Source of the DNA: Methylocystis sp.
GTDB lineage: Bacteria; Pseudomonadota; Alphaproteobacteria; Rhizobiales; Beijerinckiaceae
NCBI GenBank assembly: GCA_024506175.1
Contig: JAMBEQ010000227.1
Span: 1-63,726, forward strand
Direction: 5' to 3'
DNA: 63,726 bases
The notes under the pieces were generated by a model. That model was not told the origin of the DNA and ran no database searches. It was given only the letters and a program-made list of their open reading frames with translations. This document shows, piece by piece, positions 4,327 to 19,956 of the stretch (position 1 is the stretch's first letter; every line of letters starts with the position of its first letter). Made by a program: the position numbers and the translations under genes.

Positions 4327-5085
4327 TTACTCCCGAATGACCTTTGCCGCGAACATATAGCCTTCGGACCGTACGGTCTGGATCAGGGTTGGCTTTTTGG
4401 CGTCGGCCTCAATTTTTTGGCGAAGACGGCTGATCAGCACGTCTATGCTCCGTTCAAATGGGCCGGAGGTCGGCCCGTGCGTCATGTTAATTAATTGTTC
4501 TCGTGTTAGGATTCTGTTAGGATTCTCGCACAGGGCATGGAGGAGATCGAACTCCGCTCCTGTCATCGCAACCCTTATTCCACAGGGAGCGATGACTTGA
4601 CGCGTGAAAAGCTCGACCCGCCAGCCTGCGAACAAATATGCCTGACCTGCAGGCCGGTCTTCGACCGAAGCGGGCTTCTCGGAGCGCCTCAAAACCGCAC
4701 GAATACGCGCAAGTAATTCGCGTGAATTGAACGGTTTTACGACGTAATCGTCAGCGCCCATCTCGAGGCCGAGGATTTTGTCCACGTCGTCGCCCTGTGC
4801 AGTAAGGATAATAATGGGGATCGGATTCTCGGATCGGACCCTACGGCAGATGGAGAGCCCGTCCTCACCTGGCAAATTGAGATCAAGGAGCAAAAGATCG
4901 TATGTCTTTTGCTGGAGCGCCGCGTCCATGTCCGCGCCGTTCCCCACCACGCGCACGTCGATGTTGTGGTTGGCAAGATAAAGAGAAATCAGTTCGCCAA
5001 TTTCTGCGTCGTCTTCTACGAGCAGGAGGAAGAGGGGGCGCGACTCGTTTAGTCTCACGTTCATTGGCGGCGCCTGGACATGCAT
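4327..5085 (-). CDS. OmpR/PhoB-family response regulator (orphan)
   Basis: About 252 residues. The N-terminal receiver domain (about 17-130) has the acidic pair in VEDD, phospho-acceptor Asp68 in LLLLDLNLPG, the conserved threonine in ILTAQG and lysine in VVKPF. The C-terminal winged-helix DNA-binding domain (about 150-250) contains LLHALCENPNRILTREQL and ends in the TVRSEGYMF hairpin typical of OmpR/PhoB proteins. The start is uncertain: ATG 5085 with GGAG 12 bases upstream is used; GTG 5115 and ATG 5064 are alternatives. No histidine kinase is adjacent. It is divergent from the SulP-Ehr operon across about 440 bases and is a candidate regulator of it. Confidence 0.9.
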   Translation of the reverse strand: MHVQAPPMNVRLNESRPLFLLLVEDDAEIGELISLYLANHNIDVRVVGNGADMDAALQQKTYDLLLLDLNLPGEDGLSICRRVRSENPIPIIILTAQGDDVDKILGLEMGADDYVVKPFNSRELLARIRAVLRRSEKPASVEDRPAGQAYLFAGWRVELFTRQVIAPCGIRVAMTGAEFDLLHALCENPNRILTREQLINMTHGPTSGPFERSIDVLISRLRQKIEADAKKPTLIQTVRSEGYMFAAKVIRE

Positions 5086-5528
5086 TGGGGTGGATGCTCC
5101 TTCAGGCGTGGTCACGCGGAAGGCGAGGAGTCTATTCGATTTGCGTTTCTGCCGCGCAATTCAAATGCGGCGATATTATGGCGATCGGGAAACAAAACGG
5201 AAATATCGGGGCCGAAGGGGAGAAAATCGTGAAATTGGCTCTCCCTATCGTCCAGCCTGCGATTTGATGCGGAAAGGGCGCAAATGGATGCTGGTGTCGC
5301 GGGATCCCTCATGACTGTCCCAAAGGCGGAAATCTTCCTCGTCGCCCGAATTCCACCATTCCGCGGATTGTCCGTCAACATTGACGGCGCGGCGCGCCCC
5401 GATCGCTCTGGCGCCAGCTATCGACCACACGCTTGGCAGGGCGCCGCCAGGCGCAAGAAACAGACGCCGATTTCCTAAAGACGGAAGCGGTTTCCGCTAA
5501 GATACAGTTAGCGCGGAGAGGTTCAACC
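5086..5528. other. Divergent intergenic region between the response regulator and the SulP-Ehr operon
   Basis: No convincing protein gene is visible in these 443 bases. The region must carry promoters for both directions. No clear sigma-70 pair or sigma-54 GG/GC element could be picked by eye. The one notable signal is the small inverted repeat AGCGG-TTT-CCGCT at 5486-5498, 31 bases before the SulP start. It could be an operator or a short leader hairpin. Confidence 0.5.
5486..5498. promoter_or_regulatory. Short inverted repeat upstream of the SulP gene
   Basis: Perfect 5-base arms (AGCGG and CCGCT) separated by TTT, just upstream of the GGAGAGG ribosome binding site of the SulP gene. This is a possible operator for the divergent OmpR-type regulator. 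It is short enough to occur by chance in GC-rich DNA. Confidence 0.25.
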
Positions 5529-7202
5529 ATGACGAATTCAGCAATTCAGGCGCATCTGCCGAAGATCGGCTTTGCCGGGCTCACCGAAAATTGGAGGGCC
5601 GACATTATCTCTGGCTTGCTGGTGTTTCTTATTGCCCTCCCGCTCTGTCTGGGCATTGCGATGGCGTCGGGCTTTCCGCCCCAGGCCGGCGTCATCACCG
5701 CCATCGTCGGCGGCTTGTTCGTGTCGCGGATCAACGGTTCGTTCGTCACTATAACCGGGCCCGCGGCCGGGCTCATCGTCGTCATCCTCGACTCCGTGCA
5801 GGCGCTCGGCGGGGGGGATGCGATGGCCGGCTACCATTACACCCTTGCGGCGATTGTCTGCGCCAGCGTCATTCAAACGCTGATGGGCCTGATGAAGGCC
5901 GGGAAGATGAGCGCCTTTTTCCCATCGTCGGCCGTGCACGGCATGCTGGCGGCGATCGGCATCATCATCATGGCTAAGCAGGTTCACGTCATGCTCGGCG
6001 TGAAGCCCGATGCGGGGACGCTGTTCGAGACCATAAGCGCCATTCCCGCGAGCATTCGTGACATGAACCCTGAAGTGGCGACGATCGGCTGCATCGGTCT
6101 GCTTATTCTCATTGCTTGGCAGACGGTGGGAAACCGTTATTTGAAAATGATCCCCGCGCCGTTGATCGTCGTCGCCGTCGGCATGGTGCTCGGCCAGTAT
6201 TTCGACCTCGATCACGAGCACCTCTATCTATTCTTGCCCGACACGCAGTTCCTTCCCCATCACGAATTCACGATCGGGCCCAAGTTCTTAGTCTCGATCC
6301 CGCAGAATTTCTTGGCGAGCTTCGCTTTCCCGGATTTCTCGCTGGTTGGTCACGCGGTCTTTTGGCAGCAAGTCATCACCATTTGTCTCGTCGGCAGTCT
6401 CGAAAGCCTGCTCTCGGCTGCGGCTGTTGACAAGCTTGACCACTATAAGCGAACCTCCGACCTCAACCGGGACCTTGCAGCGGTTGGGCTCGGCAATGTA
6501 ATTTGCGGGCTGATTGGCGGGATGCCGATGATCGCAGAAATTGTCCGCAGTTCGGCCAACGTCAACAATGGCGCGCGCACGGGCTGGGCGAATTTCTTCC
6601 ATGGGCTGTTCCTGCTGATCTTCGTCGCGCTGTTCCCGCGGGTCGTGCACGAGATTCCGCTAGCGGCGCTCGCAGCCCTTCTCGTCTTCACGGGCTTCCG
6701 CCTGGCCTCTCCGAGCCAGTTCAAAAAAACCTTGGAGATTGGCTGGGATCAGCTGGGCGTTTTTGTTATCACCATCGTCGGCGTGCTGGCGACGGACCTC
6801 CTCATCGGCGTCGCCATCGGCATCTTCGCCGAATTTGTCATCCACTTCGGACGCGCAGTGAACTGGAGCGCCATCTTCAAGATCTATCGCAAGGTCGAGG
6901 AAACGGAACCGGGCGTCTTCCGGGTCGAGATCAGCGGCGCCGCCTTCTTCGGTAATTACCTCCTGCTGAAGGACGAACTGTCCAAAATTCCCCCGGGAAA
7001 GAAAATCGTGATCGATTTGTCCAACACGGCGCTGATCGATCATACCGTCATGGAGAACCTTCACCACTTTTGCGAGGACTATGAAAAGACTGGCGGGCAT
7101 GCCGAAATACAAGGCCTCGATGGCCATGTCGCCACCTCAGCTCACCCGCTGGCGCCGCGCAAGCGGGTCGGTGAAAACGGGTTCCGCAGCGCGTCGAACT
7201 AG
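5529..7202 (+). CDS. SulP-family inorganic anion transporter with STAS domain
   Basis: A 557-residue inner-membrane transporter. The N-terminal part (about 15-430) is the SulP membrane domain with about 10-14 hydrophobic segments, including the family signatures ALPLCLGIAMASGFPPQAG and TITGPAAGL. The C-terminal STAS domain (about 440-535) contains IVIDLSNTALIDHTVMENL. SulP proteins carry sulfate, bicarbonate or other anions, and the substrate cannot be read from sequence. ATG 5529 is preferred to an upstream ATG at 5433 because GGAGAGG precedes it and the transporter homology starts here. It is the first gene of an operon with six Hyf-like subunits (38 bases to hyfB), and no sulfate-assimilation gene is nearby. 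Bicarbonate is therefore a reasonable candidate substrate, as an inference. Confidence 0.9.
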   Translation: MTNSAIQAHLPKIGFAGLTENWRADIISGLLVFLIALPLCLGIAMASGFPPQAGVITAIVGGLFVSRINGSFVTITGPAAGLIVVILDSVQALGGGDAMAGYHYTLAAIVCASVIQTLMGLMKAGKMSAFFPSSAVHGMLAAIGIIIMAKQVHVMLGVKPDAGTLFETISAIPASIRDMNPEVATIGCIGLLILIAWQTVGNRYLKMIPAPLIVVAVGMVLGQYFDLDHEHLYLFLPDTQFLPHHEFTIGPKFLVSIPQNFLASFAFPDFSLVGHAVFWQQVITICLVGSLESLLSAAAVDKLDHYKRTSDLNRDLAAVGLGNVICGLIGGMPMIAEIVRSSANVNNGARTGWANFFHGLFLLIFVALFPRVVHEIPLAALAALLVFTGFRLASPSQFKKTLEIGWDQLGVFVITIVGVLATDLLIGVAIGIFAEFVIHFGRAVNWSAIFKIYRKVEETEPGVFRVEISGAAFFGNYLLLKDELSKIPPGKKIVIDLSNTALIDHTVMENLHHFCEDYEKTGGHAEIQGLDGHVATSAHPLAPRKRVGENGFRSASN

Positions 7203-7240
7203 TTCCTCTCATCGAGCAGGAATGCAAGGACATCCATAGC

Positions 7241-9238
7241 ATGCCCCTTTATCTCGCATTGGTCTGCGTCGGCGGACTGATCGGCGTCAGCTCGCTTCCC
7301 ATCTACAAGCGGGAGACCGCCGGCGTGGCCGAGCTCATCTATCGGCTCTGCCTCGGAATTTCCGCACTGCTCTTTGTAGCGGCGATTATCCCGCGCGGGG
7401 CCAACGCGCTCGATCTCACCCTGCCGCTCGGCCTACCGTGGATCGGCATGCGTCTGCATCTCGATGCGCTGACCGCCTTTTTTTTGGCGGTCGTCAACCT
7501 CGGGGGGGCAACCGCGAGCGTGTACGCCATCGGCTATGGCGCGCATGTCAGCAACCCGGTGCGGGTCGCGGCCTTCTACGCCGCTTTTCTCGCTGGCATG
7601 AACCTCGTGGTGCTTGCCGCGGACGCCTACACCTTTCTGGTCGCGTGGGAGTTCATGTCGCTTGCGTCCTGGGCCCTTGTGCTGACCCATCACCACGACG
7701 CCGAAAATCGCCGGGCCAGCTACATCTACTTGCTGATGGCGAGCTTTGGCGCGCTCGCGTTGTTGATGGCCTTCGGCGTTCTTGGCGGCGTGAGTGGCGC
7801 TTACGACTTCGCCTCGATCCGCGAAGCACCGAGAGATTCCTGGCAAACAGGCCTCGTGCTGGCGCTCGTTCTGCTTGGCGCCGGGTCGAAGGCAGGCCTC
7901 GCGCCACTGCATGTTTGGTTGCCGCTTGCGCATCCGGCTGCGCCGAGCCACGTCTCGGCGCTGATGAGCGGCGTTATGACCAAGGTCGCGATCTACGGAT
8001 TCATCCGCATCGTATTCGATCTCCTGGGCCCGCCCGCCTTTTGGTGGAGCATCGAACCGATGACATTCGGCGCGATCAGCGCGGTCATCGCGATTCTTTT
8101 CGCGACGCTCCAGAGCGATCTGAAGAAGCTCCTCGCCTACAGCACCATCGAGAATATTGGCGTTATCTTCATCGGACTCGGGCTTTCGCTGGCCTTCAAG
8201 GCGAACGGGATGCTCGTGCCGGCTGCGGTGGCCTTCAGCGCTGCACTTTTCCATATTTTCAACCATTCGCTGTTCAAGAGCCTTCTCTTCTTCGGGGCCG
8301 GCGCGGTTCTCACCGCGACTGGCGAACGAAACATCGAGCGTCTCGGCGGCTTGATCCATTCGATGCCGAAGACGGCTTTTCTTTTCCTCGGCGGCTGCTT
8401 CGCGATAGCGGCGCTGCCGCCGCTGAATGGCTTTGTGTCCGAATGGCTGATGTTTCAGGCCATCTTGCTCAGCCCCACCATGCCGCAATGGATCCTGAAG
8501 CTGCTCGTTCCCGCTGTGGGCGTCGCGCTCGCGCTGAGCGCTGCGCTCGGCGCGAGCTGCTACGTTCGCGCCTATGGCGTCGCGTTTCTGGGTCGCCCGC
8601 GCTCCGATGAGGCGCGGGAGGCGAAGGAAGTCGACCAGTGGTCGTTGGGCGCCATGTCCTTTCTGCTCGGCCTATCGCTCACCGCTGGGCTCTTGCCAGG
8701 CTTCTTCATCGACACGATTTCGCCGGTGGCCAAAGCGTTTATCGGAGGCCGAATGCCCGCGCAGAATGAGGTCGGCTGGCTTTCGATCGCGCCCGTCGCC
8801 GAGAGTCGGAGCTCTTACAACGGCATGCTTGTATTTGTGCTCATCGTCGCTTCCGCTTGGGCCGCGAGATGGCTGATCTACAAATATTGGTCTGGTGCAA
8901 CCAGGCGGGCGCCCGCGTGGGACTGTGGCTACATCGAACCCAGCACGGCGACCCAATATACAGGATCGAGCTTCGCGCAACCCATTCGCAGGACGCTTGG
9001 CGTCATCGCCTTTTCCGCGCGCGAACGCCTCGACATGCCCTTGCCGGGAGAGACGCGCGCGGCGCGCTTTAGCGTGCAGATCCAGGATCGCATCTTCAAC
9101 TTTCTCTACCTGCCGATCACGAGCGCGGTCGCCCGCATCTCCAATTGGCTGAACGCCCTCAATTTCCTGTCGATCCAGGAATACCTCGGTCTCGTCTTCG
9201 CAGCGCTCGTCCTGCTGTTGGTGGGGGTCGCGCGATGA
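7241..9238 (+). CDS. hyfB: Hydrogenase-4 component B-like proton-translocating subunit (NuoL/Mrp antiporter family)
   Basis: A 665-residue polytopic membrane protein of the complex-I antiporter-like family. The core channel signatures are present: GAGSKAGLAPLHVWLPLAH with its lysine and the following SALMSGVMTKVAIYGF with a second lysine, both on the proton path. The C-terminal extension (WDCGY, ATQYTGSSFAQPI) is typical of HyfB/HycC rather than NuoL. AAGGA precedes the ATG. The stop overlaps the next start (ATGA). In this operon it would form one of two proton- or cation-conducting subunits of the membrane arm. Confidence 0.9.
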   Translation: MPLYLALVCVGGLIGVSSLPIYKRETAGVAELIYRLCLGISALLFVAAIIPRGANALDLTLPLGLPWIGMRLHLDALTAFFLAVVNLGGATASVYAIGYGAHVSNPVRVAAFYAAFLAGMNLVVLAADAYTFLVAWEFMSLASWALVLTHHHDAENRRASYIYLLMASFGALALLMAFGVLGGVSGAYDFASIREAPRDSWQTGLVLALVLLGAGSKAGLAPLHVWLPLAHPAAPSHVSALMSGVMTKVAIYGFIRIVFDLLGPPAFWWSIEPMTFGAISAVIAILFATLQSDLKKLLAYSTIENIGVIFIGLGLSLAFKANGMLVPAAVAFSAALFHIFNHSLFKSLLFFGAGAVLTATGERNIERLGGLIHSMPKTAFLFLGGCFAIAALPPLNGFVSEWLMFQAILLSPTMPQWILKLLVPAVGVALALSAALGASCYVRAYGVAFLGRPRSDEAREAKEVDQWSLGAMSFLLGLSLTAGLLPGFFIDTISPVAKAFIGGRMPAQNEVGWLSIAPVAESRSSYNGMLVFVLIVASAWAARWLIYKYWSGATRRAPAWDCGYIEPSTATQYTGSSFAQPIRRTLGVIAFSARERLDMPLPGETRAARFSVQIQDRIFNFLYLPITSAVARISNWLNALNFLSIQEYLGLVFAALVLLLVGVAR

Positions 9239-10188
9239 CAATCATCTTCGATCTATTCGCGCAGATCCTCCAGATGGCGCTGGTGCTGCTGGCCGCGCCG
9301 CTGCTCATCGGCTTTGTCCGAAAGGTCAAAGCGCATCTCTTGCGGCGGCAAGGCCCCCCGATTGTCCAGCCATGGCGGGATCTCTTGCGTCTCCTGCGCA
9401 AGGAGACGGTCCTGGCGGAGAATGCGTCGTGGTTTTATCGCGCCGCGCCATATTTCATCTTCGCGACGACATGGGTTGCGGCTTCGCTGACGCCCACGTT
9501 CGAGAATGGGCTGATGTTCAGCTGGGCGGCTGATCTGATCGCCATCATCGCGCTTCTGGGGAGCGCCCGCTTCCTGCTTGCGCTCGCCGGGATGGATGTC
9601 GGCACGAGCTTCGGCGGCATCGGCTCAAGCCGGGAGGCGATGTTCGGCTCGCTCGCCGAGCCGGCGACGATCATGATCGTCTTCACCGTTTCGCTGGTCG
9701 CGGGATCGACGCAGCTCTCGGAAATTGCCTCCTACATGCTGGCGCATTCCGAGCTGCGCGTATCCGTCGGCATGGCGCTCATCGCGCTCCTTATCGTCGC
9801 GATCGCGGAGAACGGCCGTGTGCCGGTGGATAACCCCGCGACCCATCTTGAGCTGACCATGGTGCATGAAGCGATGATCCTCGAGTATTCAGGGCGCCAC
9901 CTCGCGCTCATCGAGCTCGCGTCGGCGCTGAAGCTTCTGCTCTACATCTCGCTGATTGATTGCATGTTCTTTCCCTGGGGGATGGCGCCCCATGGTGCGG
10001 GCGTCGTAGAAATGGCCACGGGCGGCGTCGCTTTTGTATTCAAGCTTGCGGTCGCCGGCGTCCTCCTTGCGGTGTTCGAGACGTCGACCGCCAAGATGCG
10101 CGTCTTTCGCGTTCCAGACTTCCTTGGCGCAGGGCTGATGCTCGGTTTGCTCGCGACGCTGCTGGTCTTCGTCACTCGGAGCCTTTGA
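9235..10188 (+). CDS. hyfC: Hydrogenase-4 component C-like membrane subunit (NuoH family)
   Basis: A 317-residue membrane protein, with start ATG overlapping the hyfB stop. NuoH/HyfC proteins anchor the peripheral redox module to the membrane arm. The conserved acidic loop is present (AENGRVPVDNPATHLELTMVHEAM, here in two parts around residues 192-215), as is the VQPWRDLLRLLRKE motif near the N-terminus, where group-4 enzymes contact the small subunit. An upstream in-frame ATG at 9145 lies inside hyfB and is not used. Confidence 0.9.
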   Translation: MTIIFDLFAQILQMALVLLAAPLLIGFVRKVKAHLLRRQGPPIVQPWRDLLRLLRKETVLAENASWFYRAAPYFIFATTWVAASLTPTFENGLMFSWAADLIAIIALLGSARFLLALAGMDVGTSFGGIGSSREAMFGSLAEPATIMIVFTVSLVAGSTQLSEIASYMLAHSELRVSVGMALIALLIVAIAENGRVPVDNPATHLELTMVHEAMILEYSGRHLALIELASALKLLLYISLIDCMFFPWGMAPHGAGVVEMATGGVAFVFKLAVAGVLLAVFETSTAKMRVFRVPDFLGAGLMLGLLATLLVFVTRSL

Positions 10189-10190
10189 CA

Positions 10191-10853
10191 ATGGAGCATC
10201 TATCGCTCGATATCGCGCAACTTCTCGCTGGCGCGCTGGTGCTCGTGAGCTTCATGCTGCTCTATCAGGATCGGCTCCAAGGGCTCATCAATATCTTCGC
10301 CTTGCACGCGTTCGTCCTTACGCTGTCTGTCGCTTGGCAAGCCTATATCCAGCATGCTCCGCATCTTTACGTGACCGCCGGCATCGCGCTCATCTTCAAA
10401 GCGCTGGTTATTCCGATCAGCCTGCGTACGATCATCAAGCGCCTGCGTATCCATCGCACCGTCGAGATGATCGGCGGCGTCGGGGTCACGATGTTGATCG
10501 GAATCTTCCTCACCGCGCTCTCGCTTGTCGTGATGCTGCCCGCGACGGCAAGCGCCGATCCGCTCGCGCGCGAGGATATCGCATTCGCCTTGGCGATCGT
10601 TTTGCTCGGCTTGCTCATGATGGTCACCAGGCGCAACGCCGTCAGCCAGATCATCGGCTTCATGTCGCTAGAAAATGGATTGATCCTCGCTGCGGCCGGC
10701 GCCAACGGGATGCCGCTGGTCGTCGAGATCAGCGTCGCATTCTCTGTGCTGATCGCCTTCATCATCATCGGCGTCTTCCTGTTTCGCATTCGCGAACGTT
10801 TCGACACGGTCGACCTCTATCACCTGGATCGCGTGCGCGGAGAACGCAATTGA
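10191..10853 (+). CDS. hyfE: Hydrogenase-4 component E-like membrane subunit (NuoK-like)
   Basis: A 220-residue membrane protein with about six hydrophobic segments, three bases after hyfC. The C-terminal half carries the HyfE/NuoK-like pattern SLENGLILAAAGANGMPL followed by VAFSVLIAFIIIGVFLFRI, with the membrane glutamate of the NuoK family. It is longer than NuoK (about 100 residues), as HyfE proteins are. Its TGA stop overlaps the TTG start of hyfF. Confidence 0.87.
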   Translation: MEHLSLDIAQLLAGALVLVSFMLLYQDRLQGLINIFALHAFVLTLSVAWQAYIQHAPHLYVTAGIALIFKALVIPISLRTIIKRLRIHRTVEMIGGVGVTMLIGIFLTALSLVVMLPATASADPLAREDIAFALAIVLLGLLMMVTRRNAVSQIIGFMSLENGLILAAAGANGMPLVVEISVAFSVLIAFIIIGVFLFRIRERFDTVDLYHLDRVRGERN

Positions 10854-12301
10854 GCAGTAATCTCCTTTTGATTTCCAACGCCCTCGTTTCCGTCCCGGCG
10901 GCTGCCGCCTGTGTGCTGGCCTTTCAAACGGATTATCGACGCTCGGCGCAGATCAACCTGGCGGCCTCGGGCGTCACCTTCCTCTTCGCGCTGACGCTGC
11001 TGCTGACCGGCCCCGAAAATGGGACTTATCTCTTTGTCGACGACCTCAATATCGTCTTTATCATTCTCTCGACATTCGTGGGCTTCACGACGAGCATCTT
11101 TAGCGCGAGCTACATTGGACACGAGATCGACACAGGAAAACTAACGTCCGCCAACGTTCGATTTTACCATGCGATGTATCAGGCGCTCATGTGTTCGATG
11201 AATTTGGCGCTTCTCGCCGCCAACATCGGATTGATGTGGGTCGCGGTGGAAATTGCCACGCTTTCGACCGTGCTGATGGTGGGCCTTTACCGAACGCCGC
11301 ACGCGCTCGAAGCCGCATGGAAATATTTCATACTCGGCAGCGTGGGCATCGCGCTCGCGCTGTTCGGCACGATCCTGGTCTATATGGGGGCACAGCCCGT
11401 GCTCGGCGAGGGCTACGACGGGATGGTGTGGACGTCCTTGATGCAGCACGCGTCACAGTTCAATCCCCGTATGCTCAACGTCGCTTTCGTCTTTTTGATG
11501 CTGGGCTACGGCACAAAGGTCGGCCTCGCGCCGATGCACGCCTGGCTTCCCGACGCCCATGCGGAGGGCCCGACGCCCATTTCGGCGGTCTTGTCGGGCC
11601 TCCTTCTGAATGTGGCGCTTCATGCGGTGCTCCGGTTTAAAATGCTGCTCGCGGCCAATGCGGCTGCGATCACGCCTGGGCCGCTGATGATCACGCTTGG
11701 TCTTGCGTCGCTTATCTTCGCGGCCTTCATGCTTTACCGCCGTGACGACATCAAACGGCTTTTCGCTTATTCGTCGATCGAGCATATGGGCATCATCGCC
11801 TTCGCCTTCGGGGTCGGCGGGCCGCTCGCCAATTTCGCGGGCCTTATGCACATGGCGATGCATAGCCTGACGAAGTCCGCGATCTTTTTCGCCGTGGGTC
11901 ACATCGCGCAGGTCAAAGGCACGCAGAAGATCGCGGACATCAGGGGCTTGACCGAGAGCCATCCGGCGCTGGGATGGGGGCTGGTGGCGGGCGTCGTGGC
12001 GATCGTCGGCTTGCCGCCGCTCGGCGTCTTTATGAGCGAGTTTCTCGTCGTCAGCTCCACCTTCGCCCAGCAACCGCTTCTCGCCATTCCTCTTGTTTTC
12101 GGCCTTCTGGTGGCGTTCGGCGCGATCCTGTTAAGACTGATCGGCATGGCGTTCGGCGAGGCGACCGAAAGCAAAGAGAGCGCCGTTAAGGCGTCGCTTG
12201 TGCCTCTCTATGCGCATCTGGCGCTGGTGCTGCTGGCGGGGCTGTACCTTCCGCCGCATCTCGTCGCGTGGTTTCAGAATGTTGCGCGTCTACTAGGCTG
12301 A
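10850..12301 (+). CDS. hyfF: Hydrogenase-4 component F-like proton-translocating subunit (NuoN/M-like)
   Basis: A 483-residue second antiporter-like subunit. The signature GYGTKVGLAPMHAWLPDAHAEGP and the following SAVLSGLLLNVALHAVLRF match HyfF, and a further membrane lysine lies in YRRDDIKRLFAYSSIEHMG. The start is a TTG at 10850 that overlaps the hyfE stop (TTGA). No in-frame ATG is suitably placed, because the frame upstream lies inside hyfE. Translational coupling is likely. Together with hyfB it gives two ion-translocating modules; HyfD is absent. Confidence 0.88.
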   Translation: MSSNLLLISNALVSVPAAAACVLAFQTDYRRSAQINLAASGVTFLFALTLLLTGPENGTYLFVDDLNIVFIILSTFVGFTTSIFSASYIGHEIDTGKLTSANVRFYHAMYQALMCSMNLALLAANIGLMWVAVEIATLSTVLMVGLYRTPHALEAAWKYFILGSVGIALALFGTILVYMGAQPVLGEGYDGMVWTSLMQHASQFNPRMLNVAFVFLMLGYGTKVGLAPMHAWLPDAHAEGPTPISAVLSGLLLNVALHAVLRFKMLLAANAAAITPGPLMITLGLASLIFAAFMLYRRDDIKRLFAYSSIEHMGIIAFAFGVGGPLANFAGLMHMAMHSLTKSAIFFAVGHIAQVKGTQKIADIRGLTESHPALGWGLVAGVVAIVGLPPLGVFMSEFLVVSSTFAQQPLLAIPLVFGLLVAFGAILLRLIGMAFGEATESKESAVKASLVPLYAHLALVLLAGLYLPPHLVAWFQNVARLLG

Positions 12302-12318
12302 TGTCGAAGGACAGAAAC

Positions 12319-13836
12319 ATGGATCTCTTGCGCAAAGAAGCGTTGGCTTCTCCCGCTGTCCCGGCCTGTCGCCCGTGGCCTCGCATGGCTGTCGACCAAG
12401 CCACATGGCGGGCGACAATCAATCAGCTCGCTGCCGGGGAGTGCGACCTGCTCAGCCTTTGGAGCGACGGCGCGCAGGTTCATTTGGCGGCGTTTCGTCC
12501 AAGCGATGCAAGCGTGCAGATACTGTCGCTCGACTGCGCCGGGGGCAGCTATCCGTCGGTTGGACGCGCGCACCCGTCCGCACTTAGGCTCGAGCGCGCG
12601 ACCTTCGACCTCTATGGCGTCGTCGCGGAAGGTTCGTCCGATACACGACGGTGGCTCGATCACGGCCGGTGGGGCGTGCGGCGTCCGGGCGGCGCCGGAG
12701 AGGCGACGGCCGGCGCCGCCGATCCTTATACGTTTTTGCCCGTCGAAGGCGAGGGGCTGCATCAGATTCCCGTGGGCCCCGTGCACGCCGGCGTCATTGA
12801 GCCGGGGCATTTCCGTTTCACCGCCAATGGCGAAGTGGTCGTGCGTCTCGAGGAGCGGCTGGGTTTCGTCCATAAGGGCGTCGGTCAGCTGATGTCTGGG
12901 GCGTCAATCGAGGGCGCGGCAAAGCTCGCGGGCCGGGTCTCCGGCGACAGCACGGTCGCATACGCTATTGCATTCGCCCAGGCGGTCGAGGCGGCGCTGG
13001 AGATCAGCGCGCCGCCGCGCGCGGTGTATTTGCGCGCATTGATGGCCGAGCTGGAGCGTCTCGCAAATCATTTTGGCGACATCGGCGCGATTTGCAACGA
13101 CGCGTCTTTTGCCTTGATGCAGGCGCAGTGCGCCTTGGTTCGGGAGAAGATTCTCAGGGCGTCTAAGGCGTGCTTCGGTCATCGGTTGATGATGGACTGC
13201 GTTTCGCCGGGCGGCGTCGCGCACGACCTGAGCGCAGACAAAGCGGCTTGTCTTGGCGAGCTGCTCGATTGGATCAGGCTAATGACGCCGCGTCTTATCG
13301 CCCTTTTTGGCGATACCACCTCGCTGCAGGATCGAACGGTCGGAACGGGCATCCTCAACACGTCTCTCGCGCGCCAATTTGGCTGTGGCGGCGTTATCGG
13401 CCGCGCGTCGGGCAGGGAGTTCGACGCCCGCAAAGCGATCGGTTACGCTCCGTATCCGGATTTGTCGTTTGCAGTTGGCGGTTCGCGTGATGGCGATGTC
13501 GATGCGCGCGTGTGGGTGCGCTTCGACGAGGTCAGCGCCTCGACCGAGCTTGTTACGCAAATCCTCGAACGCATGCCCCACGGCCCGATAAACGTCGAAT
13601 TTCAGGCGCGGACGGGGGCGGTTCGAGAGGGCGCGGCGTTGGTGGAGGGCTTCCGAGGCGACATTTTCGCCTTCCTTCGGATCGGGGAGGACGGAACAAT
13701 CGAGAGCTGCCATCTACGCGATCCCTCGTGGTTCCAGTGGCCGCTGCTCGAGGCGGCGATCAAGGGCAATATCGTCGCGGATTTCCCCCTATGCAATAAA
13801 TCCTTCAACTGCTCCTATTCCGGGCACGATCTTTAA
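12319..13836 (+). CDS. hyfG: HyfG/NuoCD-like large subunit lacking the [NiFe]-binding cysteines
   Basis: About 505 residues: an N-terminal NuoC-like part (about 25-120, ending LERATFDLYG) fused to a NuoD/hydrogenase-large-subunit part (about 148-505). The group-4 motif PxGPxHxxxxEPGHFRF is present at 151-167. At the first metal-binding motif, where hydrogenases have RxCGxC, this protein reads RVSGDS (206-211), with both cysteines replaced by serine. The C-terminal DPCxxCxxH/R motif is replaced by a sequence with cysteines five residues apart (LCNKSFNCS). It therefore cannot hold a normal NiFe site and resembles the Ehr (energy-converting hydrogenase related) class. ATG 12319 has GAAGGA 7 bases upstream; ATG 12301, overlapping the hyfF stop, is the alternative. 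Confidence 0.88.
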   Translation: MDLLRKEALASPAVPACRPWPRMAVDQATWRATINQLAAGECDLLSLWSDGAQVHLAAFRPSDASVQILSLDCAGGSYPSVGRAHPSALRLERATFDLYGVVAEGSSDTRRWLDHGRWGVRRPGGAGEATAGAADPYTFLPVEGEGLHQIPVGPVHAGVIEPGHFRFTANGEVVVRLEERLGFVHKGVGQLMSGASIEGAAKLAGRVSGDSTVAYAIAFAQAVEAALEISAPPRAVYLRALMAELERLANHFGDIGAICNDASFALMQAQCALVREKILRASKACFGHRLMMDCVSPGGVAHDLSADKAACLGELLDWIRLMTPRLIALFGDTTSLQDRTVGTGILNTSLARQFGCGGVIGRASGREFDARKAIGYAPYPDLSFAVGGSRDGDVDARVWVRFDEVSASTELVTQILERMPHGPINVEFQARTGAVREGAALVEGFRGDIFAFLRIGEDGTIESCHLRDPSWFQWPLLEAAIKGNIVADFPLCNKSFNCSYSGHDL

Positions 13837-13848
13837 CAGGGCGCGACC

Positions 13849-14367
13849 ATGCAGAAATTTCTCTTTCAGGGATTGCTTCGGCGCGCGTTGACCGAACCGG
13901 CGCCCGAGCCGGACGCCGCCGCGGTCGCGGAGCTCGGCTACACGCTCGGCCGCACAGCGAACCGCAAGCTCGGCCGAAGCCTGTCAATTCGTGAGGTTGA
14001 CGCGGGCTCGTGTAACGGCTGCGAACTCGAAATCCATGCGCTCAACAACGCGTACTACGACATGGAACGTTTCGGCTTGCGCTTCGTCGCCTCCCCCCGC
14101 CACGCGGACGTCTTGCTCGTGACCGGGCCCGTGACCAAGAACATGCGCGAGGCGCTCGAGCGCACCTATAACGCAACGCCGGATCCGAAGTGGGTCGTGG
14201 CCGTTGGCGACTGCGCCTTCAACGGCGGCGTCTTTGCCGAAAGCTATGCCTGCGTGGGCGCCGTGGCGGAGGTGATCCCGGTCGATCTGCACATACGCGG
14301 ATGTCCGCCCGATCCTGTCGCGCTGCTGAAGGGATTGATCGCGCTCGTCGAGGGAAGCGAGCGTTGA
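13849..14367 (+). CDS. hyfI: HyfI/NuoB-like small subunit with one [4Fe-4S] cluster
   Basis: A 172-residue NuoB-family protein. All four cluster ligands of the proximal/N2-type [4Fe-4S] site are present: Cys55 and Cys58 (GSCNGCELE), Cys122 (VGDCAFNGG) and Cys152 (RGCPPDP). It is the only iron-sulfur protein in the operon. No HyfA/HyfH (NuoI-like) ferredoxin subunit, formate dehydrogenase or maturation gene is present, so no chain of clusters leads away from this one. It is the last gene of the operon, 12 bases after hyfG. Confidence 0.92.
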   Translation: MQKFLFQGLLRRALTEPAPEPDAAAVAELGYTLGRTANRKLGRSLSIREVDAGSCNGCELEIHALNNAYYDMERFGLRFVASPRHADVLLVTGPVTKNMREALERTYNATPDPKWVVAVGDCAFNGGVFAESYACVGAVAEVIPVDLHIRGCPPDPVALLKGLIALVEGSER

Positions 14368-14535
14368 TTTCCTAAGTGGCGATCTTGGCGCAGGGGTGCT
14401 GAAGGCGGGATCGGCCCTGCGCATGAAGCGGCTGCGGGGCGGCGGCGCCGAACTTGATTAAAGAGCGCCCGGGGCGCGGGCGCGCATCCTGCCGATCCAG
14501 AGCTTATCCATTCGCTGCAATCCGTTGGAAACAAA

Positions 14536-14567
14536 CGCTTTCTTGTCACCCTGCGACAAAAAGCGCA
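14536..14567. terminator. Hairpin downstream of the SulP-Ehr operon (possible terminator)
   Basis: Arms around GCTTTCTTGTC and GACAAAAAGC pair with one bulge around a 7-base loop. There is no T-tract on the plus strand. On the minus strand it is followed by GTTTGTTT, so it could also end leftward transcription from the cob operon. Weak evidence. Confidence 0.3.
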
Positions 14568-14598
14568 CTCTCTTTGGGAGCGCTGCAGCAATTTTGGC

Positions 14599-14627
14599 TT
14601 GACACTTGTGCAATGCAGCAATACAAA
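14599..14627 (+). promoter_or_regulatory. Sigma-70-type promoter of a small RNA
   Basis: TTGACA at 14599-14604 and TACAAA at 14622-14627, separated by exactly 17 bases. It is the best-matching housekeeping-type promoter I noticed in the window. It reads towards a 90-base segment with hairpins and a Rho-independent terminator and no open frame. Confidence 0.65.
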
Positions 14628-14633
14628 TGTGTG

Positions 14634-14725
14634 ACGGAAGCAAGATTTGCTGTCGCTTCCGTAGCCCTCCTTGGGCGTTTCCTCCCTTGACTTGGGCCGC
14701 TGGCTTTCCGGCGGCCCCTTTTTTT
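14634..14725 (+). ncRNA. Candidate small regulatory RNA with anti-Shine-Dalgarno loops
   Basis: Predicted transcript of about 92 bases with its own promoter and terminator. Hairpin 1 has perfect 8-base arms ACGGAAGC (14634-14641) and GCTTCCGT (14655-14662). Hairpin 2 is GCCC-TCCTT-GGGC (14664-14676), with an exposed TCCTT that is complementary to AAGGA. CCTCCC at 14681-14686 is expected to be single-stranded. Hairpin 3 is the terminator (14694-14717) with a T-tract. This architecture resembles alphaproteobacterial trans-acting sRNAs that mask ribosome binding sites, but I cannot assign a known family. It runs towards the 3' end of cobB. Confidence 0.62.
14694..14725 (+). terminator. Rho-independent terminator of the small RNA
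   Basis: GC-rich stem GGGCCGCTGG/CCGGCGGCCC with a short CTTT-containing loop, followed by seven or more T residues. A textbook intrinsic terminator on the plus strand. Confidence 0.85.
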
Positions 14726-14729
14726 GCTT

Positions 14730-14772
14730 GGAGCGCATCCCGCAAAAGTCGACGGACTTTGCGACGCATGAT
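14730..14772. repeat. Partial copy (C) of a palindromic intergenic repeat
   Basis: Contains GAGCGCAT, then GCAAAAGTC, a short loop, GACTTTGC and GCATG. It matches the second half of the longer repeats at 33401-33515 and 57384-57500 and forms the same hairpin. Likely a decayed REP/RIME-like element. Confidence 0.5.
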
Positions 14773-14797
14773 CCATTTCTGCAGAAAGCGCGACGCC

Positions 14798-16096
14798 TCA
14801 GCTGATCAGATGAAAGAATGAGCCCGTGACCAAGCCGTCGCGCAGGCCGACAGGGGTCTCGTCATCTGAATAGGCGTCGCGCGCAAAGGCGAAGGGAGCG
14901 CCCGATTCTCCGACAATCGCGGCGTAATGAAACTCGTGGCCGCGCAGCAGGCCGCCTTTGGGCCCGAGAGGATGGTCCCCCGCAAGAGTTGCGCGGCGGT
15001 AACCCAAGTGGAGCTTGTGCTTCGCAAAGCTCGTCTCGAGGTTGAGCAGCCCCGCCATCGGATGGGCCGCGCCGTTGGCGTCGATCAGAGAGCGCCCAAG
15101 CACCATGTAGCCGCCACACTCGCCGTGGACCGGCCTGCCTTCGGCGAACCCGCGCAGCCCGGAGAGAAAGGCTTCAGCCTGCGCCAAGCGGCCGGCATGA
15201 AGCTCAGGGTAGCCGCCGGGAAGCCAGCAGAGATCGCAGTCCGCGGGCGGTGGCTCGTCGGCGAGCGGCGAGAAGAAGAAGAGCTCGGCCCCCTGCGATC
15301 GCCAGCTCTGCGCCAGATGCGGATAAAAAAACGAAAAGGCAGCATCGCGCGCCACGGCGATTCGCTGCGCCGGAGGGGCGAGCGGGGCCGTTGCATGATG
15401 GCCAGCGGCCGCGGCTGCGGCTGCTTGCGCGACAGCGGGCGCGTCGACATGCGCTTCGATAAAATCCGCCAGGGCTTCAAGTCTTGCGTCGAGAGCGTCC
15501 GTTTCTCCTGCCTGCACGAGTCCGAGGTGGCGCTCCGGCAGTTTGACGGCGTCGTTGCGGGGCAGGGCGCCGAAAAGGGGCAGGCCAAGGGCCGCCACGC
15601 TCTCCCCGACGAGACGACGATGCCTTTCGCCGCCGAGGCGATTTGCCACGACGCCCGCGATCTTCAGGCGCGCATCGTGGCTTGCAAGGCCTCGGATGAT
15701 CGCCCCCGCGGTCTGCGCCTGGCCGGAGACGTCATGCGCCAGCAGCACCGGCCAGCCGAGCAGAGCGGCGATATCCGCGCTCGCTCCCGTGCCCGCCGCG
15801 CCGCCGGGCGCGCCGTCGAAAAGGCCCATGGCGCCTTCGGCGATAACGATATCGGCGCCGGCACCTGCGCGCGCCGCCAGCTCGGCGATCACGCCCGGCT
15901 CCATCGCCCAGGAATCGAGATTGATGCTCTCACGTCCCGTTGCGGCGGCGTGGAAGGCGGGGTCGATGTAATCAGGCCCGCATTTGACGGCTGCGACTCG
16001 CATGCCCCGTCGCGTCAGCGCGCGCATCAGGCCGAGCGCGAGCGTGGTCTTGCCTGAGCCCGAACGCGCCGCCGCGATCAACAGGCCAGGCGTCAT
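14798..16096 (-). CDS. cobB: Cobyrinate a,c-diamide synthase
   Basis: A 432-residue glutamine- and ATP-dependent amidase that amidates the a and c side chains of (hydrogeno)byrinate. An N-terminal dethiobiotin-synthetase-like domain carries the P-loop SGSGKTT (residues 12-18). The C-terminal class-I glutaminase domain has the nucleophile in [11 protein letters not shown] and ends with a FHYA-type histidine motif. It is the last gene of the long cob operon, and its start overlaps the cobM stop. Confidence 0.95.
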
Positions 16097-16857
16097 AAAC
16101 CGCCCCTTGGCCTGAAACGGCGATCGTAGCCTGCGTCATAAAGCGCGCTTTCGCGGAAATCCTCTGCGCCGAGCGAGGGGCCGACGAGAATGAGCGCCGT
16201 GCGCTCCATCGGCGCCGCGGCGGCGCGCGCCTCGATGTCCGCGAGCGTCCCTTGCACGATGGTTTCGTCGGGCCAGGAGGCGCGAAAGACGAGCGCGACG
16301 GGGCAATCGCCGCCGTAGAAGGGGGTGAGTTCCTCGACGACGCGGGCGAGAACGTGAATGGAAAGATGGATGGCGAGCGTCGCCCCAGATTGCGCGAAGG
16401 TCGCGAGCTTTTCGCGCTCTGGCATGGCCGAGGCGCGGCCGGAGGTGCGGGTGAGCACGAGCGACTGCGCAACTTCCGGCAGAGTGAGCTCGCGCCCGAG
16501 CGCGCTCGCCGCCGCGGCGAAGGCCGGCACGCCGGGCGTCATCGTATAGGGAATGCCGAGCGCGCGCAGACGGCGCGTCTGCTCGCCGACCGCGCTCCAG
16601 ATGGAGAGATCGCCAGAATGCAGTCGCGCGACCTCGAGCCCGGCGTCATGCGCGTTTTTCATTTCAGCAACGATGTCGTCGAGCGACAACGGCGCCGTGT
16701 CGATGATGCGCGCGTCTGCCGGGCAATGGGCGAGGACGCCGGCAGGCACGAGAGAGCCCGCGTAAAGACAGACGGGGCAGCGCGCGATGAGGTCGCGGCC
16801 GCGCAGGGTTAGGAGATCGGCGGCGCCGGGGCCGGCGCCGATGAAATGCACAGTCAT
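16093..16857 (-). CDS. cobM: Precorrin-4 C11-methyltransferase
   Basis: A 254-residue tetrapyrrole methylase that transfers a methyl group from S-adenosylmethionine to C11 of precorrin-4. The fold signature [18 protein letters not shown] opens the protein, and YAGSLVP and the SGDLSIW segment (where CobM replaces the usual GDP with GDL) identify the CobM branch. Both ends overlap neighbours by four bases (ATGA). Confidence 0.94.
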
Positions 16858-17243
16858 ATCTGCTCCTCGGGGCCGATCGCGAGCGCGCAGGCGGCGTAGG
16901 GCGTTGCAACGCGCGGCGCCAGGAGGCGGCTTCCAGGACCCGCCCCGACGAGGGCGGCTGCCTCGGCCACGCTGCCGACGCCAAACATCGCCTGCACGCG
17001 GGGCGAGTGAGTGGCCGCAGCGCCCTTGCGCGCCTTCAAGGCGCCGAGCGAAAGAAAAACCAGAGGGACCCCGAGCAGCTTCGCCGCCTCATGAAGGCCG
17101 GGCTCGTCAGCCTTGCTCTCCAGCGTGCACAGTGTGAGGCATGAAAGAGGCACGCCATGCTGCGTGGCGACCTCGCGCACGAGTTCGACGATCGCTTGCG
17201 CCGCGACGCCCCTGCGCGCTCCAATGCCGGCGGCATATTTCAT
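16854..17243 (-). CDS. cobE: Cobalamin biosynthesis protein CobE (CbiG C-terminal domain)
   Basis: A 129-residue protein matching the CobE / CbiG C-terminal domain: [17 protein letters not shown] near the start, then [12 protein letters not shown] and [24 protein letters not shown]. Its exact role in the aerobic route is not settled; in CbiG the homologous protein acts at the C20 acetaldehyde step. ATG 17243 is chosen because it overlaps the cobL stop, rather than the start six codons upstream. Confidence 0.88.
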
Positions 17244-18442
17244 GGCTTCACCGCACGCCATTGCAGGACGGCCATGGCCGGATCGAGCGCATGAAAACGC
17301 CCGACCGGCCGCGCGCGCGCGATTTGCAGATGGGTAAGATCGCCGCCTCTGGCTGCGAAAGCCTGCGCGAGCAAGGATTGCGTTTCGAGCGTCACAGCAT
17401 TGACGACGATCCTGCCTTGCGATGGCAGGGCGCGCCAGGCGGCTTCGAGCGTCGCCTCATCGGCGCCGCCGCCGATGAAGATGGCGTCAGGCGCCCTTAG
17501 ATTTTCCAATGCTTGCGGCGCCGCGCCTGTGACGATCTCCAAATCGGGGACGTCCAGCGCGAGCGCATTGCGCGCAATGCGGGCGGCGCGCGTCTCGTCC
17601 CGCTCCAAGGCGATCGCATGGTTGGCGGGATGGCTCAACATCCATTCGATGGAAATCGATCCCGAGCCCGCGCCGATATCCCAAAGCGTTTCACCCTTGC
17701 GCGGCGCGAGAGCAGACAGCGTCACGGCCCGGATCTCGCGCTTGGTGAGCTGGCCGTCGTTCTCGAACCAATCGTCGGGCAAGCCGGGCGCGAGCGGAAT
17801 GACGCGCGCGCCAGCGTCCGCCATGACTTCGATCGCGACCGTATTGAGGGGTGCTATGTCGTTAAGTTGGAAAGCGTCCGCACGCGCCTCCGTGATGCGT
17901 TCGCTCGGGCCGCCCATGTGTTCGAACACGACGAGCCTCGATGCGCCCATGCCGCGTTCAGAAAGATACAGCGCGAGACGCGCCGGAGTCGTTTCGTCCC
18001 ATGAGAGCGCGATGATGCGCGCGCGCGGCTGCAGATATGGCGCAATGCGCTCGAAGGCGCGGCCGTGCAGTGAGACGAGCGCGCAATCCTGCTGGCTCCA
18101 ATTGAGCCGCGCCGCCGCGAGGGAGAAGGCCGAAGGCGAGGGAATGCAAAGGATTTCCTCACGCCCGACATGGCGCGAGATCAGATCGCCGACGCCATAG
18201 AAAAATGGATCGCCGGAAGCCAGCACGACGACCGGCTCGCCGCGCCGCGCCAATATGCGCGGGATGGAGTCCGTGAGTGGCGACGGCCATTGCAGGCGCT
18301 CGGCCTTGTTCGCCCTGACGTGCGAAAGGTGGCGCGCGCCGCCGACGATGAGCGTCGCACGTTCGATCAGCGCGCGCGCCGCGGGCGCCAGCGCCTCGAC
18401 GCCGTCTTCGCCAATGCCGATGATGGAGAGCCATTTCTCCAT
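17240..18442 (-). CDS. cobL: Precorrin-6Y C5,C15-methyltransferase (decarboxylating)
   Basis: A 400-residue fusion of the CbiE-like (N-terminal, about 1-200, tetrapyrrole methylase with GIGEDGVEAL and ASGDPFFYG) and CbiT-like (C-terminal, about 215-400, Rossmann methyltransferase with LWDIGAGSGSISIEW) enzymes. It methylates C5 and C15 and removes the C12 acetate carboxyl. Length fits CobL. It starts directly after the cobJ stop. Confidence 0.95.
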   Translation of the reverse strand: MEKWLSIIGIGEDGVEALAPAARALIERATLIVGGARHLSHVRANKAERLQWPSPLTDSIPRILARRGEPVVVLASGDPFFYGVGDLISRHVGREEILCIPSPSAFSLAAARLNWSQQDCALVSLHGRAFERIAPYLQPRARIIALSWDETTPARLALYLSERGMGASRLVVFEHMGGPSERITEARADAFQLNDIAPLNTVAIEVMADAGARVIPLAPGLPDDWFENDGQLTKREIRAVTLSALAPRKGETLWDIGAGSGSISIEWMLSHPANHAIALERDETRAARIARNALALDVPDLEIVTGAAPQALENLRAPDAIFIGGGADEATLEAAWRALPSQGRIVVNAVTLETQSLLAQAFAARGGDLTHLQIARARPVGRFHALDPAMAVLQWRAVKP

Positions 18443-19195
18443 TCATTCGGCCTTTCGCGCGGTATAGACCCAATCGCGCGCGCTTTCGCGCGTGATGCGT
18501 TTGGTGCCGCTCGCGCCGATGACGACGAGCGTCGACATGTCGATCAGCGAAACATCCACCTCGTCGAGCGTCGTGAGGATGATGTCTTCCTTCTCCCGGC
18601 CCACCGATTTCGCTAGGCCAACAAACGCCGAGCCGGGCAGGAACCGCCTCAGCAGCGCGAAAGCGTCTATAACGCGCGTGGGCCGCGCGCGAGAGGCCGG
18701 GTTGTAAAGCGCGATGACGAAATCGCCGCGCGCCGCATGTTCGAGCCGCTTCTCGACCACATTCCAAGGCTTGAGATTATCCGAAAGCGAGATGGCGCAG
18801 AAATCATGGCCGAGCGGCGCGCCGAGACGCGCGGCCGCCGCCTGCATGGCGGAGACGCCAGGAACGACGCGAATATCGAGGTCGCGCCATTCCTTGGGCC
18901 CGTGATCGACGGCTTCCAACACGGCCGCGGCCATGGCGAAGACGCCCGGATCGCCGCCGGATACGACGGCGACGTTGCGTCCTTGCGCCGTGCGCTCCAA
19001 CGCCTCGCGCGCGCGGTCGATCTCTACGCGATTGTCGCTGGCGATGCGGGTCTGGCCTTCGCGCATCGGCACGCGCGCGACATAGGGTTCGTAACCGATG
19101 ATGTCTTGCGCCTGCGCCAGCGCCTCTTGCGCTTCGAGCGTCAGCCAGCGTTCATCAGCGGGCCCGAGGCCAACGATGTAGAGGACGCCGCTCAT
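18443..19195 (-). CDS. cobJ: Precorrin-3B C17-methyltransferase
   Basis: A 250-residue tetrapyrrole methylase. It contains VGLGPADERWLTLEAQEAL, the SAM-binding VVSGGDPGVFAMA, VVPGVSAMQAAAARLGAPLGHDF (in two adjacent blocks) and ISLSDNLKPW, all diagnostic of CobJ/CbiH. It contracts the ring while methylating C17. It overlaps cobI by four bases. Confidence 0.95.
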   Translation of the reverse strand: MSGVLYIVGLGPADERWLTLEAQEALAQAQDIIGYEPYVARVPMREGQTRIASDNRVEIDRAREALERTAQGRNVAVVSGGDPGVFAMAAAVLEAVDHGPKEWRDLDIRVVPGVSAMQAAAARLGAPLGHDFCAISLSDNLKPWNVVEKRLEHAARGDFVIALYNPASRARPTRVIDAFALLRRFLPGSAFVGLAKSVGREKEDIILTTLDEVDVSLIDMSTLVVIGASGTKRITRESARDWVYTARKAE

Positions 19196-19956
19196 GGACG
19201 GCGGCCCTGGCCCGGCACGAGCGCCATGGAGAAATAGGGGGCTTCGTCGCCGCTTTTTTCAGCGAAGGGCATGATCTTTTCGCCGGCCATGGCGCCGCGT
19301 TCGACGTAGATGGCGCGCGAGACGACGCCGGCGCGTTCCATCGCGCGACGCAGCTTCGGGAAATTTCCGCCGAGCTTCATGACGACCGCCGCATCGGTCG
19401 TCGCCAGACGTTGCGCCAGCGTGTCCTCATCGAGCGTTGCCGGCATGACGGTGAGAATATCGTCGCCCCATGTCATGGGTTGGCGCGCGGCGGCGAAACA
19501 GCCCGACATGCCAGAGACGCCTGCGCAGACCTCGACGCGAAAGCGGCCCTCGAGCCGGACGAAAATATGCATGAAGGAGCCGTAGAGGAACGGATCGCCT
19601 TCGCAGAGCAACGCCACGTCGCGCCCCTCTTCGAGCACGGCGGCGATGCGTTGCGCGCTTTCCTCGTAGAAGCTCGCGAGCGTTGAAACATAATCGGGCG
19701 CGTCGAAAGCGATCTCTGTCGTGATGGGGTAGAGGAGCGGCAGCTCCTCGTAGCCTTTCGAGAAATAGCGCTCGGCGATCGTGCGGGCGTGGCTCACGCG
19801 ACCACGCTTGGCGAAATAGGCGATCGTCTTCGCTTCGCCGATAAGGCGCGCCGCTTTCACTGTGACGAGTTCCGGGTCGCCGGGGCCGAGCCCGATTCCG
19901 ACCAACGCGCCAAGCGTCGCCGCGCCTTGCGAAGAGATTGCGGGGCGCGCGTTCAT
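19192..19956 (-). CDS. cobI: Precorrin-2 C20-methyltransferase
   Basis: A 254-residue tetrapyrrole methylase that methylates C20 of precorrin-2. It contains GIGLGPGDPELVTVKAARLI (start of the SAM-binding domain), LLCEGDPFLYGSFMHIF and VCAGVSGMSGCFAAARQPM, as in CobI. It overlaps cobH upstream by four bases and cobJ downstream. Confidence 0.95.
   Translation of the reverse strand: MNARPAISSQGAATLGALVGIGLGPGDPELVTVKAARLIGEAKTIAYFAKRGRVSHARTIAERYFSKGYEELPLLYPITTEIAFDAPDYVSTLASFYEESAQRIAAVLEEGRDVALLCEGDPFLYGSFMHIFVRLEGRFRVEVCAGVSGMSGCFAAARQPMTWGDDILTVMPATLDEDTLAQRLATTDAAVVMKLGGNFPKLRRAMERAGVVSRAIYVERGAMAGEKIMPFAEKSGDEAPYFSMALVPGQGRRP

Follow-up and report, generated by a model that had tools for sequence, protein, structure and literature searches.

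Why should the gene of a SulP family anion transporter head an operon for a hydrogenase-like membrane complex, and what might the two do together? The question is raised by a locus in a 63,726-nucleotide stretch of Methylocystis sp. DNA (contig JAMBEQ010000227.1 of assembly GCA_024506175.1), hereafter the window; Methylocystis is a type II methanotroph. Seven consecutive genes, SulP-hyfB-hyfC-hyfE-hyfF-hyfG-hyfI, occupy positions 5529-14367, all on the plus strand (Table 1). The largest gap is the 38 bases between SulP and hyfB, while hyfC overlaps hyfB and hyfF overlaps hyfE. We found that SulP and this Hyf complex, which lacks the nickel-iron (Ni-Fe) site of hydrogenases, form a real and recurrent partnership linked to methanotrophs. 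To the reading that SulP and HyfBCEFGI work together as one module of inorganic-carbon supply in methanotrophs, in which a bicarbonate-carrying SulP would be tied to an ion-translocating Hyf complex, we give about an even chance.

The initial annotation had described the gene order, strand and spacing of at most 38 bases, and these were confirmed on the window coordinates and by family matches. It had also stated that the operon contains no HyfA/H ferredoxin, formate dehydrogenase or maturation gene, in agreement with our finding none of these, hyp genes included, in the operon and the adjacent genes scanned (short open reading frames at 14.2-14.8 kb lie outside the scan). A terminator between SulP and hyfB, which it had named as a sign against joint function, did not appear in a consensus scan; that type of scan placed a terminator-like site after hyfI, and no promoter-like site ahead of SulP.

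By names and overall homology the complex could be a formate hydrogenlyase or hydrogenase-4 of the usual kind, to which SulP is adjacent by accident. HyfB, HyfG and HyfI are homologous to chains of the E. coli formate hydrogenlyase (7z0s), and the best solved chain for HyfB is its subunit 3 (7z0s_C). Unlike in that enzyme, the Ni-Fe cysteines are gone. All four positions, which mark the large subunit of group 4 (Hyf/Hyc) [NiFe] hydrogenases, are replaced in the window HyfG (S214, S217, S505 and G508), with the HycE motifs RVCGIC and PCYSC aligning to RVSGDS and CSYSG. Across 148 aligned HyfG rows (one contig, L086/L106, is counted twice), S214-G215-D216 never varies. Position 217 holds S, T or A in all rows but two gammaproteobacterial ones (L128 and L213), each with a single Cys there, and Cys is found at neither 505 nor 508 in any row whose C-terminus is aligned. 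Two rows thus retain a single one of the four cysteines, and the others retain none. Conservation of the replacement motif itself points to a function that is different but maintained, and not to decay. Formate dehydrogenase and ferredoxin-like electron-transfer subunits, both expected of a formate hydrogenlyase, are likewise absent from the operon and the adjacent genes scanned. Since the Ni-Fe ligands are lost and the SulP linkage recurs in two classes far beyond chance, as described below, we regard the hydrogenase or formate hydrogenlyase identity as refuted. The quinone ligands of complex I, His38 and Tyr87 of T. thermophilus Nqo4, are not kept in HyfG either, their positions aligning to I166 and G215 in one pairwise alignment. 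The antiporter-like domain is kept in HyfB and HyfF. In one Rhizobiales family (loci L049, L050 and L052-L055), hypF, hypD and in some cases hypE, as read by eye, lie directly upstream of hyfB. We rejected these genes as a sign of a Ni-Fe site, HyfG of that same family being without Ni-Fe ligands.

The pairing of SulP with hyf is well conserved in Methylocystis. The genus set comprised 39 genomes, of which 33 bear hyf: 31 with HyfG at E <= 1e-100, plus those of L095 and L097, where hyf is cut by contig ends. By coordinates and fetched loci, SulP immediately precedes hyfB in 29 of the 33, counting G592 and G646, each with a partial SulP on the contig. It was not seen upstream of hyf in G376, G546, G617 or G622 (G622 is 73% complete and was judged by coordinates only). 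The spacing between SulP and hyfB is 14-169 bases with a median of 60 in 14 fetched loci, 13 of them distinct since L069 and L097 are one contig; L098 comes from outside the genus, and the value for L085 is excluded. The same gene order is found in Methylocystis loci retrieved by SulP similarity, e.g. L070 (M. rosea SV97), L067 (M. silviterrae), L068 and L075. In the rest of the family, one of 41 hyf-bearing genomes (G431, from a different genus) has a SulP, of 75% identity, immediately ahead of hyfB.

The second group is the Methylococcales, the gammaproteobacterial methanotrophs. Among 201 sampled genomes, the SulP clade occurs in 155, HyfG in 94 and DabA, discussed below, in 124. From 92 genomes we retrieved 96 hyf loci, with five HyfG places of greater distance (34-36% identity) left out; 14 of the 96 were set aside (ten without hyfB in the stretch, four with less than 2.2 kb upstream), which gives 82 evaluable loci. 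A SulP gene of the same clade is next to or inside the hyf operon in 55 of these. It lies upstream on the same strand in 49, between hyfF and hyfG in three (L170, L172 and L202) and divergently in three. Ten loci have two SulP genes upstream of hyf, and in L172 SulP fragments lie upstream and a long SulP separates hyfF from hyfG, the position at which L211 has just a 72-codon SulP remnant. A chance neighbourhood was rejected: under generous assumptions, with loci taken as independent, about 0.2% of loci would be expected to have a SulP in the 2.5 kb ahead of hyfB, against 50 of 82 in the scripted count and 49 of 82 after inspection. SulP also occurs in 87 of the 94 genomes with HyfG compared to 68 of the 107 without (Fisher p 6e-7, kinship uncorrected). 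The initial annotation had raised the prospect of a conserved pair of SulP and NiFe-less HyfG tied to methylotrophy, and both methanotroph groups were found to hold it.

The pairing does not appear to go back to a single event. In the HyfG tree (99 rows, with every second Methylococcales locus), Methylococcales and alphaproteobacterial sequences form two clades with support of 100 each. Between the classes HyfG is mostly 38-49% identical, while SulP reaches 73%. The SulP tree, made by a quick method with support by Shimodaira-Hasegawa-like approximate likelihood-ratio test (SH-aLRT) only and with long outgroup branches, puts all 23 alphaproteobacterial sequences in one clade (99), whose sister (95) is L074, a gammaproteobacterial SulP not beside hyf. 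The hyf-linked gammaproteobacterial SulPs are spread over several clades, some mixed with DabA-linked ones. On this tree hyf linkage requires 10 gains or losses, at least seven of them forced by well-supported branches, with several rows scored as solo standing on short contigs that hide linkage. Since each class has its own hyf lineage and SulP is much more alike across classes, the simplest reading of the trees is that the pairing arose more than once, separately in each class. As Rhizobiales hyf is otherwise without SulP, SulP probably joined a resident hyf in the Methylocystis lineage independently of the Methylococcales. Gains and losses inside Methylococcales are indistinguishable by these trees.

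The evidence that bears on carbon comes from the other neighbours of the SulP clade. DabA is a component of DAB, a proven CO2 pump. DAB2 is described as a CO2 hydrase driven by protonmotive force, with a NuoL-like subunit, DabB (PMC13144422). We compared 150 listed places each of SulP and DabA in Methylococcales, for which proximity counts are lower bounds. At least 22 of the SulP places are no more than 10 kb from a listed DabA, at least 17 of them no more than 1 kb, and at least 48 of the 150 are no more than 12 kb from HyfG. In four genomes (G869, G806, G877 and G844) one SulP copy is at DabA and another at hyf, among the matches listed. Some loci join all three: the order is SulP-SulP-hyfBCEFGI-DabA in L138, and in L195 hyf, DabB/DabA and SulP follow one another. 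In L187 DabA comes right after hyfI (hyfBCEFGI-DabA). A NuoL-like gene follows DabA in L216, L214 and L195. In L079 an antiporter-like gene, DabA and three further antiporter-like genes come after SulP; this locus (12018-21500) has a long DabA of 1097 amino acids and four separate antiporter-like genes, where L214 and L216 have DabA-DabB pairs instead. That the same SulP clade stands beside DabA/DabB, with four genomes having a copy at each system, points to inorganic carbon. DabA (PF10070) is not in the window operon and has no match in the window's genome (G000, 97% complete). Within Methylocystis it occurs in 10 of 39 genomes, and a replacement of hyf by DabA is unsupported there (7 of 33 genomes with hyf against 3 of 6 without, p 0.16). 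On a plasmid of Methylomagnum ishizawai (L222, 3833-10638), a SulP relative of 55% identity lies near genes annotated amoABC.

Taken together, the SulP-hyf and SulP-DabA neighbourhoods suggest an unrecognised route of inorganic-carbon uptake. In the proposed module SulP would move bicarbonate across the inner membrane, a substrate and direction that we infer. Hyf, as a complex-I relative without the hydrogen site, would move H+ or Na+ through HyfB and HyfF, and would either supply or draw on the ion gradient powering SulP, a role that DabB/DabA may play in a similar way next to other copies of SulP. SulP may be in contact with the Hyf complex. Methanotrophs release CO2 from methane yet need CO2 for carboxylations; if the module exists, they have an unrecognised carbon-supply system with a bearing on the methane-to-biomass yield. 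The initial annotation had thought of a possible machine, coupled to an ion gradient, for anion transport or CO2 hydration. The inorganic-carbon part of that idea has its basis in the genome, in the second neighbour of SulP, DabA/DabB, while for CO2 hydration by HyfG or HyfI we found no positive sequence evidence.

SulP itself belongs clearly to its family (PF00916, 213 bits against a cut-off of 23.2). Two papers connect other members with carbon: SulP-CS of Thiomicrospira pelophila rescues E. coli without carbonic anhydrase, as reported in PMC12628692, and in M. capsulatus a SulP gene shares an operon with a carbonic anhydrase (PMC11423575). By family our clade resembles BicA and the SulPs next to carbonic anhydrase. 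It differs from BicA at the residue aligned to the Na+-binding aspartate of that transporter, which is a glutamate (E292) in the window SulP.

A number of observations weigh against the carbon-supply module. The window SulP scores 138 bits against the BicA NCBIfam equivalog cut-off of 880, by which bicarbonate transport is not excluded. According to PMC12628692, one T. pelophila SulP failed to rescue. In Methylococcales 80 of the 150 listed SulP places are near neither HyfG nor a listed DabA, and adjacent SulP is absent from 25 of the 82 evaluable hyf loci, with a remnant only in one more and SulP elsewhere in the locus in another. Beside solo SulP genes in Methylocystis, we looked for carbonic anhydrase and other carbon-uptake genes and found none among the ten neighbours at the four of eight loci scanned. 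The cysteines C55, C58, C122 and C152 of HyfI, ligands of the proximal Fe-S cluster, are kept in every one of 144 aligned rows, which suggests redox work that a carbon-supply module leaves unexplained. Hyf is also common without SulP. From 34 other genomes with a strong match in the order Rhizobiales we fetched 32 (G157 and G249, with HyfG in pieces, were left out); all 32 carry the complete set of six hyf genes in the order seen here, and none of the 31 loci outside the genus has SulP ahead of them, the sole positive being a genus member. The other 40 of the 41 family genomes have no SulP match beside HyfG at the search thresholds. Close HyfG homologues (E <= 1e-60) occur in 62 of 398 sampled Pseudomonadota, counted by match alone with the metal site unchecked there, and none of the 52 genomes outside the order has a SulP match beside HyfG. 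Eight of these 52 have SulP at E <= 1e-25, in no case on the HyfG contig, and weaker SulPs or contig breaks could hide some. A hyf operon without SulP is found on plasmids of Rhizobium johnstonii, R. rhizogenes, Bradyrhizobium and Methylovirgula, and HyfG homologues on plasmids of Azospirillum, Burkholderia and Rhodococcus. Several of these genera are largely heterotrophic, and for this reason the basic job of the Hyf complex is probably not carbon uptake for autotrophy; SulP may simply exploit the complex.

Since SulP is absent from most other Hyf operons and present in Methylocystis and Methylococcales, it is a lineage-specific partner of Hyf and not a core subunit. An obligate Hyf subunit is rejected by its absence in other Rhizobiales, in nearly all of the family beyond the genus and in other Pseudomonadota sampled. 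The functional partnership proposed initially is supported where it is tied to methanotroph lineages and does not extend to Hyf operons in general: the absence of SulP from nearly all orthologous operons, which was to count against it, is what we see in those other groups and not in the two methanotroph groups. These findings leave room for a different transport role, in which Hyf is a general ion-translocating redox complex of the Ehr type and SulP a secondary transporter that uses its gradient in methanotrophs for another anion, such as sulfate, formate or an organic acid. The wide occurrence of Hyf without adjacent SulP, the invariant HyfI ligands, the failure of the window SulP to pass any NCBIfam cut-off and the position of hyf beside an F0F1 ATP synthase cluster on a Methylovirgula plasmid are in its favor. 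The recurrence of the SulP clade at DabA/DabB speaks for inorganic carbon instead, and we hold the other-anion role to be possible but somewhat unlikely.

SulP and hyf could also share regulation only, answering to the same condition with no mechanical coupling; in Methylocystis this condition would be sensed via the divergently encoded OmpR-type response regulator. Of the 13 distinct fetched alphaproteobacterial SulP-hyf loci whose upstream sequence is available (14 rows), 11 (12 rows) have this gene beside SulP, conserved at 61-76% on the amino acid level. L098 and L099 lack it, as do all eight solo SulP loci, making it a candidate regulator of the SulP-hyf module. The varied arrangement of SulP (upstream, divergent or inside) would also fit shared regulation. 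However, shared regulation is compatible with function in one pathway, and the three loci with SulP between hyfF and hyfG suggest a tighter stoichiometry or co-assembly. Regulation without coupling therefore seems to us quite improbable.

Compared to known systems, the NiFe-less Hyf complex is itself not new, because the same motifs are described for an orphan six-gene, group-4-like cluster of Acidithiobacillus thiooxidans (PMC6002666), also without clear function in that account. Its motifs SGD[TS][TS][AV][GA]Y and NLSYSGHDL correspond to SGDSTVAY and NCSYSGHDL here; unlike here, no SulP or DabA neighbour is mentioned in the consulted parts of that source. By definition only, the complex is like Ehr as outlined in PMC6349859, i.e. 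a group 4 relative of complex-I-like and antiporter-like subunits without Ni- and Fe-binding residues, but it has SulP in place of the formate dehydrogenase or NuoE/F-like partner genes given there. Ehr complexes also couple a redox reaction in the cytoplasm to ion transport; on that point the sequence shows the retained Fe-S cysteines of HyfI. With the DAB/DAC inorganic-carbon pump (PMC13144422) it shares a NuoL-like membrane subunit and, in Methylococcales, the same SulP clade as neighbour; in contrast to that pump, Hyf has a NuoCD/NuoB-like peripheral part and not DabA. A search of open-licence papers found no report of SulP with hyf or of hyf with DabA in methanotrophs, so that SulP and Hyf are parts of known kinds whose combination we have not found described.

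Cyanobacterial CO2 uptake by NDH-1MS uses the CO2-hydrating subunits CupA/CupB. A bolder form of the carbon-supply reading would make SulP plus Hyf a third complex-I-derived inorganic-carbon pump beside NDH-1MS and DAB, with SulP as the physical bicarbonate carrier, interchangeable in methanotrophs with DabA/DabB; this we consider unlikely. Close HyfG homologues are common, and we came upon no function assigned to Hyf of the NiFe-less kind. With a partner gene that joins it in two classes, and whose relatives are also neighbours of a proven CO2 pump, its function becomes amenable to testing.

Table 1. Genes and sites of the SulP-hyf locus and its flanks in the window.
Feature	Position	Strand	Evidence or remark
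OmpR-type response regulator	4327..5115	-	divergent from SulP; PF00072 + PF00486
SulP family anion transporter, 557 amino acids, weak C-terminal STAS domain	5529 (ATG)..7202 (stop)	+	PF00916 E 7e-63; STAS at cut-off
HyfB, NuoL/antiporter-like subunit	7241..9238	+	PF00361 E 5e-52; NCBIfam hydrogenase 4 subunit B, 801 bits vs cut-off 667
HyfC, NuoH-like subunit	9235..10188	+	PF00146 E 2e-39
HyfE, NuoK-like subunit	10191..10853	+	NCBIfam hydrogenase 4 membrane subunit, 84 bits, under cut-off 136
HyfF, second antiporter-like subunit	10850 (TTG)..12301	+	PF00361 E 4e-49; NCBIfam hydrogenase 4 subunit F, 836 bits vs cut-off 533
HyfG, NuoCD/HycE-like large subunit without Ni-Fe cysteines	12301..13836	+	PF00346; motif alignment
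HyfI, NuoB/HycG-like small subunit, four Fe-S cysteines kept	13849..14367	+	PF01058
Terminator-like hairpin, 10-pair stem and T-run, 3' of hyfI	14694..14717	+	consensus scan only
Corrin (cobalamin) biosynthesis genes, downstream of hyfI	14798-20918	-	scanned flank

Three further loci are of interest for the hyf genes. On plasmid pHY1 of Methylovirgula sp. HY1 (L219, 1-5219 and 5887-12992), the F0F1 ATP synthase cluster lies beside hyf and a gene for formaldehyde-activating enzyme lies downstream. A second hyf copy in G500 is reduced to a HyfF fragment, HyfG and HyfI (L100, 11957-14311). That of G602 holds all six genes, with SulP remnants nearby (L101, 9078-9390).

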